A stretch of DNA of 64,000 bases, from NCBI GenBank assembly GCA_018818835.1, contig JAHIRD010000015.1, forward strand, positions 1 through 64,000. The letters run 5' to 3'. How positions within the stretch are numbered: position 1 is the first letter of the stretch; each line of letters starts with the position of its first letter. Shown here piece by piece: positions 27,301-40,828 of the stretch. The position numbers and the translations under genes are program-made. The DNA is from Pseudomonadota bacterium (GTDB taxonomy: Bacteria; Desulfobacterota; Desulfobacteria; Desulfobacterales; Desulfolunaceae). A model generated the notes under the pieces. The model saw only the letters and a list, made by a program, of their open reading frames with translations, did no database searches and was not told where the DNA came from.

Positions 27301-28731
27301 CTATGGGTTTGTATTCAATTGGTATTGTCTGGCCTGATTGACAAAGCGTTTGGCCCAGGAGGGATTGCCCAGGGCATGGATATGGGTGTAGCAGGCAAAC
27401 ACATTTTTATAAAGGGCTCCGTCTTTTTTGTCAGCCATTCCGGTGCCTCGTTTCATGGTCAATGCCGTCTCTATGTCATTGTCCCAGGAGATGATTTTTG
27501 AATACCTGAATTCATGGCCTTTGACTTCCGAACCCACGTCAAAATAAGGGTTTTCCCGACTGACTTCCGCCACCACATACCCGTGACCCTGGGGTTTGTG
27601 TGACAAGCCGAAGGACAAGGGAAATATACCTGTCATGGGGTAGTTGACCCCCTCGATCACAAGCTCACGGCCAAGATACATCAGGCCCCCGCATTCAGCA
27701 TAGATGGGAAATCCTTTATCTGCAAGGGCCTTGATCGTTTCTCTGAACACCCTGTTTTCAGACAGTTCCTTTGCATGGGTTTCAGGAAATCCACCTCCGA
27801 TATAAAGGGCATCCACATTAGGAAATTCCGCATGACTTAAAGGGCTGGTGTAAATAATTTCAGCACCCTCATTTTCAAGTGCCTCAATATTTTCAGGATA
27901 GTAGAACTGAAAGGCGGCATCCTTGATTACTCCGATCCTGGGACCTTTTATTGTGTGAGTCTCTGAAGAAGGATTGACGATTTCAAGCGGATAAACTTCT
28001 TGGGAGATGGATCGGGTTTCGCGGTGCGCAATTGCAAGAAGCTGGTCAAGATTGATGTTTTCCCGGACAAGTTTCTCAGCACTTTCAATAGATACGGAGG
28101 CCCATAAATGTTCATGGGTGGGTACCAGACCCATATGGCGCTCAGGGAAATCGTGGCTGCGCAGCTTGGGCACAGACCCAAGAACAGGAACCCCTGTGTG
28201 ATATTCAATGTTGCTGGCCAAATTGTCCCTGTGCCTTGATCCCGCAACCTTATTGAGAATGACTCCCCCGATGGTGAGCTCCGGGTCAAAATGGAGGCAA
28301 CCCAAAACAGCCGCAGCCATGGTCCGGGTCGTTTTCGTACAGTCCAAGCAAAGAAATACCGGAAGCCCTAATAGTTTGGCTGTTTCTGCCGTACTTGTTT
28401 TTCCGTCAAGATCGATCCCGTCATAAAGACCACGGTTTCCCTCAACAACAGCAATATCAATACCTGCATTCAGCGTATTGTTCACATAGGATTGGATGAC
28501 CTGATTTTCGGGAATAAGATATGTATCAAGATTATAACAAGGCCGGCCGGCTGCAAGTGATAACCAGCCGGCATCGATATAATCCGGACCTTTTTTGAAG
28601 GGAGCAGTCTTTTTACCAAGAGCCCTTAAAGCTGCAGTTATTCCTATGGTGATCAAGGTTTTCCCAGACCCGCCCCTTAGAGCAGATACAAAGAATCCAG
28701 GACAACCATCTTTTTTTTCAAGCATGACCAT
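27301..28731 (-). CDS. dsrN: DsrN, CbiA-type amidotransferase for siroheme
   Basis: The 476-residue product has the cobyrinic acid a,c-diamide synthase architecture. The N-terminal ATP-binding part has GGSGKTLITIG, KKGPDYID and EGNRGLYDG. The C-terminal class I glutaminase-like domain has AECGGLMYLG with the nucleophile Cys. Its place as last gene of dsrABD-N identifies it as DsrN, which amidates siroheme to the siroamide form used by dissimilatory sulfite reductase. No other cobalamin gene is near, which supports this over a role in B12 synthesis. The two Met codons at the start lack a clear ribosome site. Confidence 0.9.
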   Translation of the reverse strand: MVMLEKKDGCPGFFVSALRGGSGKTLITIGITAALRALGKKTAPFKKGPDYIDAGWLSLAAGRPCYNLDTYLIPENQVIQSYVNNTLNAGIDIAVVEGNRGLYDGIDLDGKTSTAETAKLLGLPVFLCLDCTKTTRTMAAAVLGCLHFDPELTIGGVILNKVAGSRHRDNLASNIEYHTGVPVLGSVPKLRSHDFPERHMGLVPTHEHLWASVSIESAEKLVRENINLDQLLAIAHRETRSISQEVYPLEIVNPSSETHTIKGPRIGVIKDAAFQFYYPENIEALENEGAEIIYTSPLSHAEFPNVDALYIGGGFPETHAKELSENRVFRETIKALADKGFPIYAECGGLMYLGRELVIEGVNYPMTGIFPLSFGLSHKPQGHGYVVAEVSRENPYFDVGSEVKGHEFRYSKIISWDNDIETALTMKRGTGMADKKDGALYKNVFACYTHIHALGNPSWAKRFVNQARQYQLNTNP

Positions 28732-28769: not shown

Positions 28770-29018
28770 TCAATCTTCGCCTTCAGCACCCGCTTGTTTA
28801 CCCGTACCTTTAAGGCCGATCATGGTTGTACTTCCACTTGACCAGTATTCAAGGATACCTTGGGCAACCATATCGTTGACGATTTTCTTAACGGTTCTGG
28901 GTTTTTCCTCAGGAAAAAATGAATAGAAATCTTTCAAATAAAATTTTGATTTTGATTTCGCTTTTTTTTCAAGATTTTCAACGATGACTTTTTGGGCTTC
29001 AGCTGTATCTAATGCCAT
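28770..29018 (-). CDS. dsrD: DsrD, activator of dissimilatory sulfite reductase
   Basis: The 82-residue product is a small winged-helix-like protein found only next to dsrAB in sulfate reducers and their relatives. The segments SKSKFYLKDFYSFFPEEKPR and VNDMVAQGILEYWSSGSTTM are typical. It has been shown in other species to stimulate sulfite reduction by DsrAB. An AAGGAG precedes the ATG. Its presence argues for reductive (sulfate-reducing) rather than sulfur-oxidising use of this cluster. Confidence 0.95.
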   Translation of the reverse strand: MALDTAEAQKVIVENLEKKAKSKSKFYLKDFYSFFPEEKPRTVKKIVNDMVAQGILEYWSSGSTTMIGLKGTGKQAGAEGED

Positions 29019-29105: not shown

Positions 29106-30254
29106 CTAGAATTTAAACAGAGTTGACTGTCTCCATGTGTGATATGCCGCATCACGGAAGTCATCGATCAGGTGGTGGGTGAATTCAAGATCACACACTT
29201 CAAAGAATCTTTCCCAGCCGATTCTTTCTGCCCAGTCGCCCAGACGTTCGTATTTGTTGGCACCGTTTGAGTAAGCGTTGATCATTTTCTTGATAGCCAC
29301 TGTCATATTATCCCAGCGTGGTGCTTCGTTGGGCAGGAAGGCCACAACTACTTTTGAGAACTTGGGTGCTGAAATACGGTTGGATACTTTACCACCGGCC
29401 ATAAGTACAATACCGTCACCTTCTTTATCGGAAAGGGGCATTGAGGGGCACATGGTGTAGCAGTTACCGCAGTACATGCAGCGTTCATTTTTAACGGCAA
29501 CAGAATTCACGGTTGTCCCGTTGGGAAGTTCAACTTTTGAGGGTCGGATGGCTGCCGTGGGGCAGGAAGCGACGGCAAGAGGAACTTCACAGACTTTATC
29601 AAGATATTCGTGATCCAATATTGGAGGCTTTCTGTGGTAACCGAGAATGGCGATGTCAGAACAATGAACAGCACCGCACATGTTCAGGCAGCAGGCCATG
29701 GAGATTTTGAGTTTCGCAGGCATTTTCATGCTCTGGAAATCTTCGAAAACGGTGTCCATGGTTGCCTTAACTGTTCCGGAAGCATCCGTTGCAGGTGTAT
29801 GGCAGTGAATCCAGCCCTGGGTATGAACGATATTGGAAATACCGGAACCGGTACCGCCAATAGGAAATTTCATACTTCCGCCGTCGAATTTTCTTTGGGC
29901 CAGATCAGCCTTCAGAGCATTCATTTTATCTTTGCTTGTAACCATGAATTCGATGTTGTTTCGTGTGGTGAAACGAACATGTCCGTCACAATGTTTGTCT
30001 GCGATTTCACAGATTTCACGGATGTGAGTTACGCTCATCAGTCGGGCACCACCACAACGAACGGTAAACACTTCGTCCCCGGATTCTCCAACGTGAACAA
30101 GAACGCCGGGTTCGAGGATTTCATGATGAGACCATTTGCCTTTGTTTTTCTTAATGACTTCCGGGTAGAACGAGTCATAATGTTTGGGACCGATATCGGT
30201 AATACGACCTTCCATCGGTTTGTCCGGATTGTATCCTGCGGATATAAATGCCAT
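29106..30254 (-). CDS. dsrB: Dissimilatory sulfite reductase, beta subunit
   Basis: The 382-residue product is the catalytic-siroheme subunit of the DsrAB heterotetramer, which reduces sulfite in the cytoplasm with DsrC as co-substrate. Cys151, Cys188, Cys189 and Cys193 (ACCLNMCG) fit the ligands of the siroheme-coupled [4Fe-4S] cluster. An inserted ferredoxin domain has Cys231 and the [11 protein letters not shown] cluster (259-269). An AGGGAGG ribosome site precedes the start, 12 bp after dsrA. Confidence 0.98.
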
Positions 30255-30266
30255 TTTTATTCCTCC

Positions 30267-31643
30267 CTAGCGTGAATGCGCTTTTCTGTAGTCTTCAATA
30301 TCACGGCCCCAGCCACCTTCAACCTCATCTTCTTTCCAGAAAATGTAGGGGTTGGTTCGAGGATGCTGAACATGAACCGCCATGGGCTCAACTTCAACTT
30401 TCTCAAGGAATTTCTGCAGACCCTGTCGCATCATCAATTCACCAAGGCGTTCACGGTTCTTGCCTTCTTCCATCCAGTAGTCCCAAACGAGTTCAATGAA
30501 TTCGGTGATGGCTTCGTATTTTTCTGCCAGGTATTCCATCCATTCATCTTCATCTTCAAAATCAGAAAGTTGTTTGTTCAGGGTCTGGTCAATGCTGATA
30601 AAGGGTCTGATGAGGGTTCCCATCTGGGCACCGTCAACGATGGGTGCTTTGGCACCACACAGAATGGATACGCCTTTATCCTTACCGGGCTTGAGGGCCT
30701 TGGGCATAACGTTGATGCAATGCATACAACGGGTACATTCTTTGTCATTGATCTTAAGTTCGCCTTTCACAAGCGCCATACAGCCAGTGGGGCAAAGATC
30801 GATCACTTCTTTCTGGATGTCGAATTTTCCCCAGTCTCGTCCTTTAAAAGCACCGCCGTTATCAACAGTTTTTCCGTCAATATAGGCTTTGACTTCGGCC
30901 TGATTCACTTGGATTTGATCTTTCCAGGTACCGATGAAGGAAAGGTCGGAACGTGCTATGGAGCATACGCAACCATTGGGACATCCGTCAAATTTGAATT
31001 TAAATTTGTAAGGAAATGCCGGTCTGTGAAGCTCATCCTGGTAGGTCATGGTCAGGAAGTAGCAGAGCTCCTGGGTATCAAAGCAGGCGTATTCGCAACG
31101 TGAGCTGCCGATACAGTCAGCAGGAGTTCGAAGGTTCGAACCTGACCCACCCAGATCCTGGCCCATTTCATGGGTCAACTGGTAGAAAATTTCTTCAAGC
31201 TGGGGAGTTGTTGTACCCAGAAGAATGATGTCACCGGTGGAACCGTGCATGTTTGTGAGACCGCTACCACGAAGGTCCCAGATGTCCATGAGTTGGTTCA
31301 AAAAAGCGGTTGTGTAGTATTTACCACCGGGCTGTGCAACACGGACGGTATGAAATGCTGCAACGCCGGGAAAATCTTTGGGCTTGTCGCAGTAACGGCC
31401 GATAATACCGCCGCCGTAACCGAAAACACCAACGATACCACCGTGTTTCCAGTGGGTTGTACCATCTTTGTAAGAAAGTTCGAGAATTCCGAGAAGATCG
31501 TCACACACATCGCTAGGCATCTGATAGTCGAGACCTTTTGCGTTTTTCGCCCTTGTCGCAGCTTCCTGCTTGATATCGGACACAAAACTTGGCCACGGCC
31601 CGGATTCCAGCTGGTCTAACAAAGGGGTTTCATGCTTTGCCAT
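30267..31643 (-). CDS. dsrA: Dissimilatory sulfite reductase, alpha subunit
   Basis: The 458-residue product pairs with DsrB. The coupled-cluster motif C-x5-C (Cys177, Cys183) and C-x3-C (Cys221, Cys225) is intact. The inserted ferredoxin domain has Cys284, Cys288 and CTRCMHC (303-309). GGAGG precedes the ATG. It is the first gene of the dsrABDN operon. The window does not contain dsrC, dsrMKJOP, sat or aprAB, which are commonly elsewhere in these genomes. Confidence 0.98.
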   Translation of the reverse strand: MAKHETPLLDQLESGPWPSFVSDIKQEAATRAKNAKGLDYQMPSDVCDDLLGILELSYKDGTTHWKHGGIVGVFGYGGGIIGRYCDKPKDFPGVAAFHTVRVAQPGGKYYTTAFLNQLMDIWDLRGSGLTNMHGSTGDIILLGTTTPQLEEIFYQLTHEMGQDLGGSGSNLRTPADCIGSSRCEYACFDTQELCYFLTMTYQDELHRPAFPYKFKFKFDGCPNGCVCSIARSDLSFIGTWKDQIQVNQAEVKAYIDGKTVDNGGAFKGRDWGKFDIQKEVIDLCPTGCMALVKGELKINDKECTRCMHCINVMPKALKPGKDKGVSILCGAKAPIVDGAQMGTLIRPFISIDQTLNKQLSDFEDEDEWMEYLAEKYEAITEFIELVWDYWMEEGKNRERLGELMMRQGLQKFLEKVEVEPMAVHVQHPRTNPYIFWKEDEVEGGWGRDIEDYRKAHSR

Positions 31644-31820
31644 TGCCTTACCTCCATTAAAAAAAAAATTTTCTCAACTCAACATGACGAAGATCTTTCG
31701 TTTAACCCGTAAACCGGGCTGTCAAGTTACTCCACCAAAATATAACTACTTAAAATAATTTAGGACTTTATCAAGTTCTACAATTATTTGATATGCAAAA
31801 CCATGATATTCAAACTACAT

Positions 31821-31849
31821 GGTATAAAGTTATTATCTTTTGTTGTCAA
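31821..31849 (-). promoter_or_regulatory. Candidate promoter of the dsr operon
   Basis: On the minus strand TTGACA (31849-31844) and TATACC (31826-31821) are 17 bp apart. The start would fall near 31814, giving a leader of about 170 nt before dsrA. The leader includes a small CCCG/CGGG hairpin. No gene is present in the 31644-31966 gap. Confidence 0.6.
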
Positions 31850-31966
31850 TAAAAAAGGATTCTTTCCCTGTTTTTAGGGCTTTCCGCCATTTCTTCTTTT
31901 GGCCCCCCATACTTCATCTTGGGGTATTGACCTTATTATTACTGGCTATCTTGTGATTTTAAGAAA

Positions 31967-33106
31967 CTACACACGGCCCTTTTTAAGTTCCTCACACAGC
32001 AGGGAAATGTGGTCATCCAGATGATCCCGAATCACTGAAAGGTCTGGCGATTCAGGATGATAGGACTGGATGAGCATGATCGCAAAATCCATCAGTTCAT
32101 TATCGGGAACGGAGACTATGAATGCCGCGAACCGATCTATGATGGGTGGTGCCATGGAGGCGGAGGTCCTCTTTGCGCCAAGGCCGTCCCAAAATCCCCT
32201 GACAACACCTGCAACACTCCGGTCGTCCGCCCAGACCGTTTTTCCAATGCCATCTTCCCTGTCCAGTCGCATGCGTATGGATAGATTGATTAAAAATATC
32301 AATGCCGCCTCAACACGCTCATCACCATCGTCCGGGGGTTCCTGAAAAATAGACGTATACTGCCTCACCGTGATCAGCTTCACATCAAGGCCCTCGTTGC
32401 CTTTTTTCACGACAAAGTCACCGGCGGCATGGTGCCAGGGCTGGATCTGTTCGCATGTCTCGACATTATAACAGCAGGTCATGATGAAAGCGGCTTTATG
32501 ATATAGCTCGTCACACTCATGTTCCGATAGAAAATAGTGCCCTTTGTCTTCATTCCAGACAATGATTTTTTTTTCGTGAATATGGAATTCATGATAATCG
32601 TCGAACCACTGGGCTGCAAACATGGAAAAATCAATATGATCATCTGAACGGAAATGACCTTTGCCATACACGGCTGGCACGGAATAGCTCTGTTTTGAAA
32701 GCCTTTCAAGGGCAGCGTACTCGCGCTCGACACAGGCAAGCCCCTGGCTTGAAACCGCCAGGTTCAAAGCAAATGACCAGGAATCACCCCTATCAAGAAC
32801 AACGTCCACTTTGGAGGGGTGATAGAATGTTCCGTGTTTGACAAGGCAAACAGCAATCGTTTCAATATGGTCTGTCCGGATTTGTTTTCCCAGGGATCCC
32901 AGAGCCGACGTTTTAAGAATCCCGTAATCGTCTGCCGACAGGAATCGTGATGCTGCCTTAAAATAGTGCCCCGTGGTGGCCGGAGAGTTGTGTGAATCTC
33001 CGGGATGACGATTGGCAGGAAGATGACGCAGCCATAGCTCTGACTGTTCATCAACCACACTGGCGGAATCGGTAATAGAAAATAAAAATTGGGGATGACG
33101 ATTCAT
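31967..33106 (-). CDS. Unrecognised 379-residue protein upstream of dsrA
   Basis: I do not recognise this gene. It is cytosolic by composition, with no signal peptide or membrane helix. The middle has features reminiscent of a kinase/aminoglycoside-phosphotransferase fold: a beta-rich N-lobe (VDVVLDRGDSWSFALNLAV), an EREYAALERL helix, a hinge-like FAAQWFDDYHEFHI and a later QPWHHAAGDFVVK followed by VKLITVRQY. A canonical HxD catalytic triad is not clear, so this is a weak structural guess. The C-terminal third is helical. It lies 43 bp after a TPR gene and 323 bp before dsrA, all on the same strand. Confidence 0.7.
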   Translation of the reverse strand: MNRHPQFLFSITDSASVVDEQSELWLRHLPANRHPGDSHNSPATTGHYFKAASRFLSADDYGILKTSALGSLGKQIRTDHIETIAVCLVKHGTFYHPSKVDVVLDRGDSWSFALNLAVSSQGLACVEREYAALERLSKQSYSVPAVYGKGHFRSDDHIDFSMFAAQWFDDYHEFHIHEKKIIVWNEDKGHYFLSEHECDELYHKAAFIMTCCYNVETCEQIQPWHHAAGDFVVKKGNEGLDVKLITVRQYTSIFQEPPDDGDERVEAALIFLINLSIRMRLDREDGIGKTVWADDRSVAGVVRGFWDGLGAKRTSASMAPPIIDRFAAFIVSVPDNELMDFAIMLIQSYHPESPDLSVIRDHLDDHISLLCEELKKGRV

Positions 33107-33148
33107 AAAGCGATTAAATCACCGACCCCATTTAAGGACCGGTGTCCA

Positions 33149-33799
33149 TTACCTGTAAGAATTGATTTCGTTTAATAATTCCGGTGCCACCTCGTAGCCC
33201 AGGCTGATGGCCGTATCGATGTGTTCTGCTGCCAGAGCGTAATCTTTTTGTTCAAGATAGGCGATGGCAAGATTGTTATGGGCAATGGGAAAATTCGGCT
33301 CGATTTCAAGGGCTTTCTTGCTGGTTTCAATACTCTCATGCACAAGGCCCTTCATCAAATAGGCGTTGGCAAGGGTGGTGTAGGCCTGTAAAAATAAAGA
33401 GTTATAGACAATGGCCTTATGAAGATTTTTGATGGCTTCATCAATATTCCCTCGCTGGAGTTCGATAAAACCAATGTTTCCAAATCCTATGGAAAAGCCG
33501 GCCCTTGATTTGGTGGCCAGTCTGTTATAATAAAGGCAACCTTCCATATCTTCCCTTTGGAGACAGATGGCACCAAGCTGAACGTAGGCCTCTGCAAGGG
33601 TGGGGCTACATCCCACAGCCTCATGAAGTTCGCTTTCTGCTTCCTCGTATTTTTTCTGTCCCATCAGTGCCACTGCCAGATTGTAATGGGTGGTCCCGCA
33701 CTCGGAGTTTGACCCTATAGCCTGTCTCAGCTGGGCGATGTATTCTTCTGCATTTTTAGCTTTAACCATTGTTTTCAAACCCTTATTCATAAATATCAT
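33149..33799 (-). CDS. Tetratricopeptide repeat protein
   Basis: This 216-residue protein consists of about five consecutive TPR units (for example THYNLAVALMGQKKYEEAE, LAEAYVQLGAICLQREDME, PIAHNNLAIAYLEQKDYALA). It has no signal peptide and probably acts as a cytosolic protein-protein scaffold. It may be translated with the unrecognised 379-residue gene downstream. Three candidate starts (33799, 33790, 33769) exist and none has a clear ribosome site. I keep the longest. Confidence 0.85.
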   Translation of the reverse strand: MIFMNKGLKTMVKAKNAEEYIAQLRQAIGSNSECGTTHYNLAVALMGQKKYEEAESELHEAVGCSPTLAEAYVQLGAICLQREDMEGCLYYNRLATKSRAGFSIGFGNIGFIELQRGNIDEAIKNLHKAIVYNSLFLQAYTTLANAYLMKGLVHESIETSKKALEIEPNFPIAHNNLAIAYLEQKDYALAAEHIDTAISLGYEVAPELLNEINSYR

Positions 33800-33941: not shown

Positions 33942-33970
33942 TTGACATTATGCCGACTCTTTTTTATCTT
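33942..33970 (+). promoter_or_regulatory. Candidate promoter of the DapA-family gene
   Basis: TTGACA (33942-33947) and TATCTT (33965-33970) are 17 bp apart. The predicted start near 33977 coincides with the left edge of the palindromic element, so the element would form most of the 5' untranslated leader. Confidence 0.55.
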
Positions 33971-33976
33971 TCCAAG

Positions 33977-34132
33977 CTCGATGAACTCGTACAAAATCGA
34001 CGGATGGCTATGGAAAAAGTTCCATAGGCAAGGCATAGTGTTTGGCCGGGCGTTACGGCATTCTTGGTCGTATGTCGAACGTCCGGCTAAACACTATAAC
34101 GCCGCATATGGAACTTTTTACGACGCCATCAA
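33977..34132 (+). repeat. Palindromic ~150-bp element, copy A
   Basis: The ends are imperfect inverted repeats (GATGAACTCGTACAAAATC at left, the complement of GATGGCGTCGTAAAAAGTT at right). Inner arms ATAGTGTTTGGCCGGGCGTT and AACGTCCGGCTAAACACTAT flank a central loop, and a further pair (GGAAAAAGTTCCATA/CATATGGAACTTTTT) lies outside them. The element closely matches 40664-40828 in reverse orientation. It codes for nothing itself but extends the open frame of the following gene artificially. Confidence 0.9.
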
Positions 34133-34157
34133 GGACAATCTATCATCAGGAGGAATT

Positions 34158-35192
34158 ATGAATACCGGCTGTTACACTGCACTGACCACTCCCTTTTTAG
34201 ATGGTGAAGTTGATTACCCGGGTCTTGAAAAGCTTGTTGATTTTCAGATTCAAAACGGAATAAGTGGTATTCTTGCCGTGGGCACCACAGGCGAAAGTCC
34301 CACCCTCGTGTGGGATGACCATATCAAGGTCATTGAAAACATTTCAAAAAAAACGAAAAATAAATGTCTCTGTATAGCCGGAACCGGAAGCAATAATACC
34401 TGTGAAACCCTTTCTGCCACTCGGCAGGCCAAGGATGCAGGTGTCGATGCTGTTCTTCTGGTGGATCCTTACTATAACGGCCCGAGTTCCATTGAGATTC
34501 GAAAAGAGTATATCGGACCTGTTGCCGAGGCCTTTCCTGACCTGACCATTATTCCCTATATTATTCCCGGACGCACAGGTACCCAGCTGCTGCCCGAAGA
34601 TCTGGCCATATTAAAGAACCGGTACAAGAATGTCAGTGCTGTCAAAGAAGCCACGGGGAATATTGAAAATATGAGGCGGACACGGCAGGTCTGCGGCCCG
34701 GACTTTTCGATTTATTCCGGCGATGACGCCATGGTCTATGATATGATGACAGACCCTGAAATCCAGGCATGCGGCCTGATATCCGTGGCGTCCAATATCA
34801 TTCCGAAATTCACCACCCAACTGGTCATGATGATCGAAGAAAAACGGCTGGATGAAGCCAGTGCTCTGGTGAAACAGCTTGAACCCCTGTTCAACCTGAC
34901 AACGGTGATTACGCGTGAAAAAACACCTTATGGAGAAATCACCTGCCGGGCACGAAATCCTCTGGGGATTAAAACAGCCATGGCTATTCTGGGAATGCCT
35001 TCGGGAGGATGCAGAAAACCCCTTGGGAAAATGACCCCAACGGGTCTTACGACCGTTCTGGGAACCCTGAAAGCCGTTTGGAAGGATCATCCTCACCTGC
35101 TTGCACCTATGGCCGATTTTTTTCAGGTAGATATTGAAAAACGGCTCAATGACAAGGACCGATTCAAGGATCTGGCTTATACAGACATCTAA
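34158..35192 (+). CDS. Dihydrodipicolinate synthase (DapA) family lyase
   Basis: This 344-residue protein is a class I aldolase-type TIM barrel of the DapA/N-acetylneuraminate lyase family. It has AVGTTGESPTL, the Tyr-containing IIPYIIPGRTG and the Schiff-base Lys in VSAVKEATGN. It is about 50 residues longer than classical DapA, with the extra sequence at the C-terminus, so a substrate other than aspartate semialdehyde is possible. I chose the ATG at 34158, which has AGGAGG upstream. The frame continues upstream only because of the palindromic element. No lysine-pathway genes are adjacent. Confidence 0.88.
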   Translation: MNTGCYTALTTPFLDGEVDYPGLEKLVDFQIQNGISGILAVGTTGESPTLVWDDHIKVIENISKKTKNKCLCIAGTGSNNTCETLSATRQAKDAGVDAVLLVDPYYNGPSSIEIRKEYIGPVAEAFPDLTIIPYIIPGRTGTQLLPEDLAILKNRYKNVSAVKEATGNIENMRRTRQVCGPDFSIYSGDDAMVYDMMTDPEIQACGLISVASNIIPKFTTQLVMMIEEKRLDEASALVKQLEPLFNLTTVITREKTPYGEITCRARNPLGIKTAMAILGMPSGGCRKPLGKMTPTGLTTVLGTLKAVWKDHPHLLAPMADFFQVDIEKRLNDKDRFKDLAYTDI

Positions 35193-35430: not shown

Positions 35431-36210
35431 TTATTTCAAACGAAGCCGTTTAGAAGACATCTGAAAAAAGCTGACTTTCACAAAATCAAATCCAAATTTC
35501 ATCATTTCCACATCATTGCGTTTGATTTTTTTCCGGATGTCTTCCTTGACTTTATACCGCTTTAAAAATGAGCTCCCGAACACGAATTCACGAAAGGCAT
35601 CCACGTTGTACAAGGCCATGAAGGCCATCTTGCCCCTGTTCCCCCCGGGGCCTTCACCACCCCAGGGATCGGCCTGGAAAAGGCCTATGAGCCCAGCCCA
35701 CAGCACCGTCATCGCGTTGTAAGTGGCGGCATCCTGGTCATCGGCCCAGGTATCAATGGTGAATACCTGCGTTTCATGCTGCCCCAGACAAAAGTCCGGA
35801 GGCCTGAAAAAAAACACCGGTTCAGGTTGGGCACCATCACGAAACATCACCCCCTGCTCCACGGGAAAGGTTCGGCAGGCGTCGGGTCTGTCCGGGTAGA
35901 CCAGGCAGCCCGTGTCGGACAAGTAGGGGCAGGTTTTCGCATCATTATCCGCCATTTTCAGAAGAACATCAGGAAAATGATTTCCGGGCCGCAATACGAT
36001 ATCGGTATAACGATCAATAAATTCACCGGAGGATATGTTCAGATTGTTTTTCAGGCGAATCACATCATAGGGGTAAAGAAAAAGGTTCAAATTTCTGCAA
36101 CAGAGGTTGAAGCAGGTAAGTCCCTTGTGACATTTAAAGTGAAATTCATCTTTTGTTTCAAGCTTTTGTCCGGGAAGCCCCGGAATATCTTTCAGATCCA
36201 CTGATTTCAT
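35431..36210 (-). CDS. YkgJ-type cysteine-cluster protein
   Basis: The 259-residue product carries the YkgJ/CxxCxxCC-like pattern. CFNLCC (near residues 33-38) is followed by CPYL, GCLVYP and DACRTFP, eight Cys in all that could bind a metal or Fe-S cluster. The family is sometimes annotated as Fe-S oxidoreductase or zinc/iron-chelating, but the function is not established. The C-terminal ~100 residues are not part of the core motif. It overlaps the preceding cysteine-rich gene by 4 bp (ATGA), so the two are coupled. Confidence 0.82.
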   Translation of the reverse strand: MKSVDLKDIPGLPGQKLETKDEFHFKCHKGLTCFNLCCRNLNLFLYPYDVIRLKNNLNISSGEFIDRYTDIVLRPGNHFPDVLLKMADNDAKTCPYLSDTGCLVYPDRPDACRTFPVEQGVMFRDGAQPEPVFFFRPPDFCLGQHETQVFTIDTWADDQDAATYNAMTVLWAGLIGLFQADPWGGEGPGGNRGKMAFMALYNVDAFREFVFGSSFLKRYKVKEDIRKKIKRNDVEMMKFGFDFVKVSFFQMSSKRLRLK

Positions 36211-36794
36211 AAAAGCAGCATCTCCGCAATGGTATACTTCATCCGGTCCATGATTCCGGTTTTCAATCGAAATTCACTCTCCAACTGGGCCATGTCTTTA
36301 TAAAAAGGCGTTCTGTCAAAGGGTATATACATCATCTGTTCGGTTTGTTTGCGGAACAGATCGCAGCCGATGCTCTTTACCGGTGCTTGACCGGGCTTGC
36401 AGAGTTCATGATCCAGCCCGTGAAGGCGACATACCATGGGCCGGAATGTGTAAAGCAAACAACGCCCCTGGGCATTCAGGGGGCACATGATCTTCAGATC
36501 ATGGCCGTGTTTGTCGGCGCTGTTGGATTGGGCGACCACGTCTGCAGCCTTTTGAAGAATGGTTTCACGTGTCCCATGGTCAAGGGTTCCCATGCCTTGA
36601 TGCAGATAAGCATACTCAAGGAGGGTGTGGTGGTAAAAACGGCTGTAACAGCAATTGTCCTCACACCCCCTGCAATGGAAGCCATAGGCCCCTGCCACAC
36701 AGCCATATGCCTGGTCCATCCTGTCAAACAGGACCTTGAGTCTTTCACACCACGGGCCATTGGCCTGAACAATCAGACGGCGGGAAAGTGTCAT
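36207..36794 (-). CDS. Second cysteine-cluster protein
   Basis: This 195-residue protein also has a YkgJ-like arrangement: FHCRGCEDNCC, then CPLNAQGRCLLYTFRPMVCR and a later IGC. It is clearly distinct in sequence from its neighbour. No specific function can be assigned, and metal binding is an inference from the Cys spacing. It begins immediately after the dGTPase stop codon (ATG 36794; a GTG at 36797 is also possible) and overlaps the next gene, so dgt and both cluster genes form one operon. Confidence 0.78.
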   Translation of the reverse strand: MTLSRRLIVQANGPWCERLKVLFDRMDQAYGCVAGAYGFHCRGCEDNCCYSRFYHHTLLEYAYLHQGMGTLDHGTRETILQKAADVVAQSNSADKHGHDLKIMCPLNAQGRCLLYTFRPMVCRLHGLDHELCKPGQAPVKSIGCDLFRKQTEQMMYIPFDRTPFYKDMAQLESEFRLKTGIMDRMKYTIAEMLLL

Positions 36795-36797
36795 CAC

Positions 36798-40663: not shown

Positions 40664-40828
40664 ATGATTGATGGCGTCGTAAAAAGTCCCATATGCAGCG
40701 TTATAGTGTTTGGCCGGACGTTCGACATACGACCAAGTATGCCGGAACGCCCGGCCAAACACTATGCCTTGCCTATGGACCTTTTTCCATAGCCATCCAT
40801 CTGCCGACTTTTTACGAACTCACCATGA
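40664..40828 (-). repeat. Palindromic ~150-bp element, copy B
   Basis: Read on the minus strand it matches copy A (33977-34132) almost throughout. It has the same terminal GTAAAAAGTC repeats and the same inner arms (ATAGTGTTTGGCCGG / CCGGCCAAACACTAT). An 11-bp direct repeat TCACCATGATT brackets it (40659-40669 and 40820-40830), which could be a target-site duplication. It sits in the rplT-pheS gap of an otherwise conserved operon. Confidence 0.9.

Follow-up and report, generated by a model that had tools for sequence, protein, structure and literature searches.

Sulfate respiration centres on the sulfite reductase DsrAB, whose siroheme cofactor is thought to be amidated by DsrN. To our knowledge, it is not settled how this cofactor is loaded into DsrAB and by which helpers. 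Pseudokinases and repurposed kinases, such as those of the SelO type, retain a kinase fold without the usual catalytic residues, and the TPR proteins Ycf3 and, in magnetosomes, MamA act as assembly or scaffold factors. A series of accessory genes, for DsrN, DsrT, DsrR, DsrS, DsrU, DsrV and DsrW, lies near dsrAB, as do the two genes described here. Several of the named accessory proteins are still without a resolved function according to the available parts of PMC3368242, PMC6018796 and PMC10504309, the last of which covers 2070 genomes in its survey of named Dsr proteins.

The window analysed here is a stretch of 64,000 nt from a 6.75-Mb draft genome (334 contigs) of the Desulfobacterales. It carries on its minus strand dsrA (30267-31643; TIGR02064, 575.5 bits against a cut-off of 392.85), dsrB (29106-30254; TIGR02066, 472.9 bits against 341.5), dsrD (28770-29018; PF08679, E 7.5e-32) and dsrN (27301-28731), which encodes an a,c-diamide synthase of the CobB/CfbB type (PF07685 and PF01656; CobB/CfbB in NCBIfam). 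By position and literature, DsrN is the siroheme amidase, and its gene comes after dsrABD in relatives. Directly upstream of dsrABDN and on the same strand, exactly as the initial annotation had described, lie the genes for a stand-alone TPR protein, T (33149-33769), and for a 379-residue protein, K (31967-33106), with a spacer of 42 nt between them. The T frame is open up to 33799 (33149-33799, minus strand, 216 amino acids); since most relatives match only from around Met11 onwards, the likely start is Met11 at 33769, which gives 206 amino acids. Rfam returned nothing relevant near the window genes and, at five relative loci, tmRNA only.

T proved to be a plain TPR protein in Pfam (TPR_1, E 1.4e-23, 82.1 bits against a cut-off of 27.8) and NCBIfam, as had been annotated; PADLOC gave a single weak row (E 0.004). 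Its AlphaFold2 model, built from 25 rows, reaches a pLDDT of 95.5 and contains 12 helices. Identity to the window protein is 59-84% for T among 24 aligned relatives of the same order and 34-43% for K among 69 aligned relatives, with about 66-89% for DsrA as a comparison. Such conservation in a repeat protein suggests that T has a conserved partner. Cys34 and Cys88 of T are kept in all 61 sequences of the order set; a metal site in T is not implied, because sequences from other orders retain these residues only patchily (Cys34 in 13 and Cys88 in 5 of 24).

K belongs to no recognised family, as the initial annotation held, and all of its scores in Pfam and NCBIfam fall below the cut-offs: the best Pfam row is MEDS (E 0.02, 15.2 bits against a cut-off of 29.8), NCBIfam gave no row at E<=1, and PADLOC gave none. 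A comparison of 70 K members with Pfam (E<=1) returned 32 families, with no kinase among the best 25 of the 32; each of these 25 appeared in one to five of the 70 members, with a best E of 0.002. Residues 24-81 resemble dihydroneopterin aldolase (FolB) in 5 of the 70 members (best E 0.017; E 0.44 in a PDB profile search), a likeness we set aside as probably due to chance, since the structural matches cover residues 46-372 or so of K as a kinase. The AlphaFold2 model of K (70 rows; pLDDT 93.2, pTM 0.92) has a predicted two-lobed kinase fold. With this model, Foldseek found 129 PDB matches at E<=0.001 (best E 8.4e-6, probability 1.00), of which the best 50 are kinases, pseudokinases or the lipopolysaccharide (LPS) kinase WaaP; the TM-scores are low, at 0.27-0.33 by query length (0.32 for the best match), and the rmsd values mostly large. 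VIA, a re-alignment of Foldseek's own candidates, ranks APH-type kinases first, led by 8agy (Z 13.6, 3.6 Å over 227 residues), and its five best rows span Z 13.6-12.1 and 3.6-4.5 Å over 211-252 residues.

We compared the kinase positions in 32 deeply sampled K sequences (the window, 12 named loci and 19 phylum-sample matches, at least one of which, L145, is from the same order), mapping them by the order of secondary-structure elements, so that an individual assignment may be off by one residue. The beta-3 lysine (VAIK) is absent at position 115 (N in 24 sequences, T in 4, S in 4), the catalytic HRD/HGD aspartate at position 225 (H in 30/32), the catalytic-loop asparagine at position 230 (D in 32/32) and the DFG aspartate at position 246 (T in 29, A in 3); the alpha-C glutamate is kept as E129 (E in 24, D in 8). 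On this mapping, the canonical kinase positions of K are replaced, mostly by other conserved residues. Invariant in all 32 sequences are K90, H91, G92, Y95, E173, H175, W224, G229, D230, R248 and D282, and the residues K90, H91, H96, H175, H225, H226, D230 and R248, found in 30-32 of the 32, would all line the cleft. We know of no named family with this set (KHGxxYH at the glycine loop, N115, WHHAAGD and TxR). A profile of K aligned by hhalign with 18 APH proteins, hand-picked from 10 genomes of relatives, gave no significant match (probability 1.9%, E 0.026), and we therefore speak of a kinase-like fold and not of a kinase. The weak kinase resemblance noted earlier thus holds for the predicted fold, and fails for the canonical catalytic residues and for the profile comparison with APH proteins.

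Within the order, we sampled 291 genomes, at thresholds of E<=0.001 for K and E<=1e-80 for dsrA. Relatives of K occur in 217 of them and dsrA in 247; 203 genomes carry both, 14 K only, 44 dsrA only and 30 neither (Fisher P 6e-11, uncorrected for kinship, and since genomes share ancestry such P values overstate independence). With K present in 217 of 291 genomes, the T-K-dsr arrangement is not a chance observation. The initial annotation had proposed comparing gene order across dsr-bearing genomes, and this order is widely kept: of the 85 genomes that have both genes among the 150 best places listed for each, 71 carry K immediately in front of dsrA and on its strand, with 200-578 nt between the matches. 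The two are about 31 kb apart on one contig in a single genome (G067) and on different contigs, some at contig ends, in 13. Two K motifs, used to scan named genomes, yielded 353 relatives, of which 80 were analysed; their titles include Desulfobacterales, Desulfobacteraceae, Deltaproteobacteria and Proteobacteria, mostly metagenome-assembled genomes (MAGs), with one 'Candidatus Delongbacteria' MAG. T precedes K in 78 of these 80 loci, and in the two exceptions (L040, L076) K begins 256 nt or less from the contig start. dsrA follows K in 62 of the 80. Among the 18 others, eight have at most 630 nt after K (L044, L045, L053, L078, L094, L098, L114, L115) and ten have room for it (L048, L055, L072, L076, L079, L085, L090, L100, L103, L113); the genomes of these ten carry dsrA elsewhere in seven cases, one of them partial, and none in three (L048, L055, L103). 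At seven hand-picked loci from the 44 K-less order genomes (L177-L183), T sits directly upstream of dsrA in six.

The 14 of 217 K-bearing order genomes without dsrA (E<=1e-80) include two with dsrB above cut-off (G137, G154) and two with a partial dsrB (G195, G011); ten have no or weak dsrB matches (<=63 bits), and nine of these ten are 70-90% complete. G044 (93% complete), together with G385 from outside the order, is a real candidate for K without dsr. At L103, in genome G675 (apparently the same as G044), which has no dsrA that we could find, the K gene contains an in-frame stop, which may reflect decay after loss of dsr, an assembly error or incompleteness. At L105 (apparently G154) only a short piece of dsrA follows K, and an intact dsrB match lies about 390 kb away on the same contig; a frameshift, a relocation or an assembly error could each account for the piece. 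The 'Candidatus Delongbacteria' locus (L115) is a 3.1-kb contig with a typical Desulfobacterales cx1-dapA-T-K segment, and is probably a binning error.

Across the phylum, a sample of 395 genomes (dsrA at E<=1e-60) contains K in 64 and dsrA in 190, and 63 of the 64 K-bearing genomes carry dsrA; K is absent from 127 of the 190 genomes with dsrA. The initial annotation would have abandoned the link had the pair occurred in non-sulfate-reducers without dsr, which is mostly not the case, given dsrA in 63/64 K-bearing genomes of the phylum sample and 203/217 of the order sample; the counterexample is G385, 99% complete, with K and neither dsrA nor dsrB. The profile search for T (E<=1e-25) matched 163 of the 395 genomes, and a cut at 120 bits or more, chosen after viewing the match list so as to exclude general TPR proteins, left 109, of which 105 carry dsrA; T at this cut is found in 54 of the 64 K-bearing genomes. 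Since T accompanies dsrA in 105 of 109 genomes, yet lies within 10 kb of it in only 61 of the 97 genomes in which both places are listed (beyond 10 kb in 36), T tracks dsr also where the two are not adjacent.

Outside the order, we inspected 30 K loci, hand-picked for spread from 52 K-bearing genomes, with several of the stretches ending at contig ends. A dsr gene is present in 18 of the 30, T in 14 and dapA in none, so that the linkage to dsr is wide and survives rearrangement. The arrangements comprise dsrABD-T facing K (L149, L152, L155, L156, L158, L174, L175), dsrABD facing K (L147), dsrN, T, cx2 and K with dsrDBA (L148), K and dsrN divergent from dsrABD (L154, L168, L169), dsrABDN-K (L166, L171), dsr genes divergent from T and K (L167, L170), and the window-type order T-K-dsrABDN (L151). 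The reading frames of K and dsrN overlap by 4 nt in L169, L166 and L171 and lie 3 nt apart in L154, and such overlap or abutment occurs in two families and in both gene orders; in L168 the gap is about 380 nt. The stretches fetched around the remaining 12 of the 30 K loci (L150, L153, L157, L159, L161-L165, L172, L173, L176) hold no dsr gene. Two of these loci, L150 and L153, keep T nearby, and the contig of L157 is short; in L159, L172, L162, L161 and L163 K lies away from dsr beside genes for RelA/SpoT, GGDEF or histidine-kinase proteins. A placement beside unrelated genes in most relatives, which would also have counted against the link, was mostly not observed, with these 12 loci as the exception. 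A gene for a HEAT-repeat protein, at 7784-8890 in L150 and at 8229-9299 in L153, shares 8 nt with the start of K. Of 21 dsr loci without K, picked by hand from outside the order, 10 contain T (>=90 bits) and none contains dapA; the 90-bit threshold is loose, as in L189, where a 92-bit match is counted and the best T of that genome lies elsewhere. T and K thus co-occur and cluster with dsr across lineages, with exceptions, and since dapA is missing from all 30 and all 21 loci while K and T accompany dsr in varied arrangements, inherited gene order alone is insufficient as an explanation.

The dapA-like gene (34158-35192, plus strand; PF00701, TIGR00674), divergent to T, is a constant neighbour in the order and served as the internal control. 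Its frame (33942-35192, plus strand) looks over-extended, the dapA-like domain fitting an ATG at 34158, and most of 33942-34157 (plus strand) consists of a palindromic repeat of about 130 bp, a MITE-like element found at 34003-34130 and again at 40670-40798, with at least 40 places in the genome at 92-100% identity (40 of 271 candidates scored). Further upstream of T on the minus strand lie cx1 (35431-36210), which encodes a CxxCxxCC protein (PF03692 in Pfam) with homologues in relative loci and is a conserved neighbour in the order, and cx2 (36207-36797), which overlaps cx1 by 4 nt and encodes a second protein of CxxCxxCC type, at 18.5 bits below the cut-off of 23. Proteins of the PF03692 type recur in other orders, where they are encoded between T and K in L148, L150, L152, L153 and L174 (below cut-off in L152).

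The 323-nt gap between K and dsrA (31644-31966, minus strand) contains a promoter-like box and the leader of dsrA; across 62 loci this gap measures 142-524 nt, with a median of 312. In the window the box (31821-31849, minus strand) consists of a run of T, TTGACA (31849-31844), 17 nt and TATACC (31826-31821). A T-run followed by TTGACA is found in 61 of 63 gaps (the window and 62 loci; lacking in L091 and L112), with a -10-like hexamer 16-18 nt after TTGACA, TATA at 17 nt being the commonest case; the median distance between hexamer and dsrA is 163 nt. By eye, the same box precedes dsrA in six of the seven K-less loci. A generic sigma-70 promoter scan of the window does not list the box because the scan requires T as the last -10 base. 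Judged from these motifs, dsrAB seems to have its own promoter and T-K probably forms its own transcription unit. Co-transcription of T-K with dsrA, which the initial annotation had suggested examining across the gap, is not required given such a box, and read-through could occur.

The dsrA leader (31644-31815, minus strand, in the window) has further features. In relatives it contains a near-perfect complement of the anti-SD sequence, of the GAGAGGAGGTGACC type: AGGAGGTG occurs in 44 of 61 leaders, in 43 of these at 72-106 nt before the dsrA start, with a mean of 0.09 in 200 base shuffles, and a second SD lies near the dsrA ATG. The window and L037 have the variant GTGGAGTA in place of AGGAGGTG. 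We take this element to resemble the mRNA stabiliser STAB-SD. By eye, the region around 31665-31735 (minus strand) of the window and the L037 leader can pair as a three-way junction, in the window with the outer arms AACTTGACA and TGTTGAGTT and two inner hairpins; Rfam holds no relevant match to it.

Our tentatively favoured explanation is that T and K assist the sulfite reductase DsrAB as accessory proteins, with its maturation as their most likely task. The initial annotation had named DsrAB assembly, siroamide insertion or regulation as roles that the pair could have. Both would act in the cytoplasm. T, predicted to form a TPR superhelix from six pairs of helices, would dock DsrA, DsrB or a maturation partner, and K, its usual phosphotransfer residues gone, would bind a ligand or partner in its recoded cleft; the step we prefer is one in which the siroheme-type cofactor would be handled or loaded alongside the amidase DsrN. 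Cysteine-cluster (PF03692) partners may join in some lineages, and T-K would be transcribed separately, with dsrAB expressed from its own promoter. Three points lead us to prefer maturation: the junction of K with dsrN, seen in two families and in both gene orders; the docking fold of T, whose occurrence follows that of dsrA; and the PF03692 partners, whose family name marks them as binders of metals or clusters. As K is missing from 44 of 247 dsrA-bearing genomes in the order and from 127 of 190 in the phylum sample, it is not generally required; the latter absence suggests that K refines or protects a process able to run without it, or is replaced there. An unlikely, more specific version makes K a kinase fold turned carrier or insertase of siroheme or siroamide, in which the emptied nucleotide cleft would hold an anionic iron tetrapyrrole or a sulfur oxyanion and K would pass this ligand on to T-bound DsrAB in concert with the amidation carried out by DsrN. 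If true, we would know of no earlier example of machinery dedicated to loading a siroheme enzyme.

The main rival to maturation, which we consider doubtful on balance, is that T and K regulate the activity, stability or expression of DsrAB instead of building it, with K sensing in its recoded pocket a small ligand, for instance sulfite, sulfide or a nucleotide, and T relaying the signal. This would suit accessory genes that adjoin an enzyme with its own promoter-like box, the pseudokinase-like cleft of K, and those K genes outside the order that stand away from dsr beside RelA/SpoT, GGDEF and histidine-kinase genes; however, K is joined to dsrN in two families, which argues for a link with the cofactor, and no DNA- or RNA-binding family was found for K or T in Pfam and NCBIfam (among the best 25 NCBIfam rows for T). 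The kinase-like fold also raises the idea that K is an active atypical transferase with non-canonical residues, using ATP or another donor to modify DsrAB, DsrC, DsrD or the tetrapyrrole, and the conserved K90, H91, D230 and R248 (32/32) and H225 (30/32) speak for it; we think this improbable, given that the positions of the beta-3 lysine, HRD aspartate and DFG aspartate are, by element order, N/T/S115, H225 and T246. Finally, there may be no functional link at all, the order being inherited or K and T merely co-expressed with dsr. dapA and cx1 are likewise conserved neighbours in the order, so gene order can persist for reasons unrelated to dsr, and no dsr gene is found near 12 of the 30 K loci from outside the order; but K and T stay with dsr there in varied arrangements when dapA does not (0/30 and 0/21), and both track dsrA even when not adjacent to it, which makes an absence of any link very improbable.

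How T and K relate to described proteins can be set out for each in turn. T resembles Ycf3 and MamA as a TPR protein of about 200 amino acids and belongs to neither equivalog, scoring 59.4 bits against the NCBIfam model of MamA and 26.1 bits against that of Ycf3, far under the cut-offs of 200 and 143; it differs from both in that its orthologue tracks dsrA. DVU2210, a YcaO-TPR protein linked to molybdate resistance (PMC7774982, as far as available), was set aside because of its different architecture. T and K differ from the named Dsr proteins as far as the descriptions of these in the available text go: in 12 of 30 places in PMC10504309, neither a TPR nor a kinase-like Dsr protein is named, and the word tetratricopeptide is absent from its text. 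We found no description of T or K in the available portions of the open-licence literature, including PMC8528874, PMC6018796, PMC13293266, PMC13047784 and PMC545781, and likewise PMC7774982, PMC10504309, PMC3368242, PMC5109826, PMC2702500 and PMC10553843; one may exist elsewhere. Both the TPR and the kinase fold are known, and it is their dsr-linked role that looks undescribed in the portions of the open-licence literature searched. The predicted fold of K is closest to the APH/choline-kinase branch (corramycin phosphotransferase, 8agy; amicoumacin kinase, 6sum; APH(3')-VIII, 4h05; APH(2'')-IVa, 9qow; NahK, 4wh3), with which it shares the order of strands and helices and the acidic residue of alpha-C (position 129), and from which it differs in the replaced beta-3 lysine, HRD aspartate, loop asparagine and DFG aspartate and in the lack of a profile match. 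Like pseudokinases, K thus combines a predicted kinase-like fold with the loss of the usual catalytic residues. These two conserved, unnamed genes that track dsr offer concrete targets for the study of cofactor loading in DsrAB, and the kinase fold, if recoded and linked to a redox enzyme, would have gained a new use.
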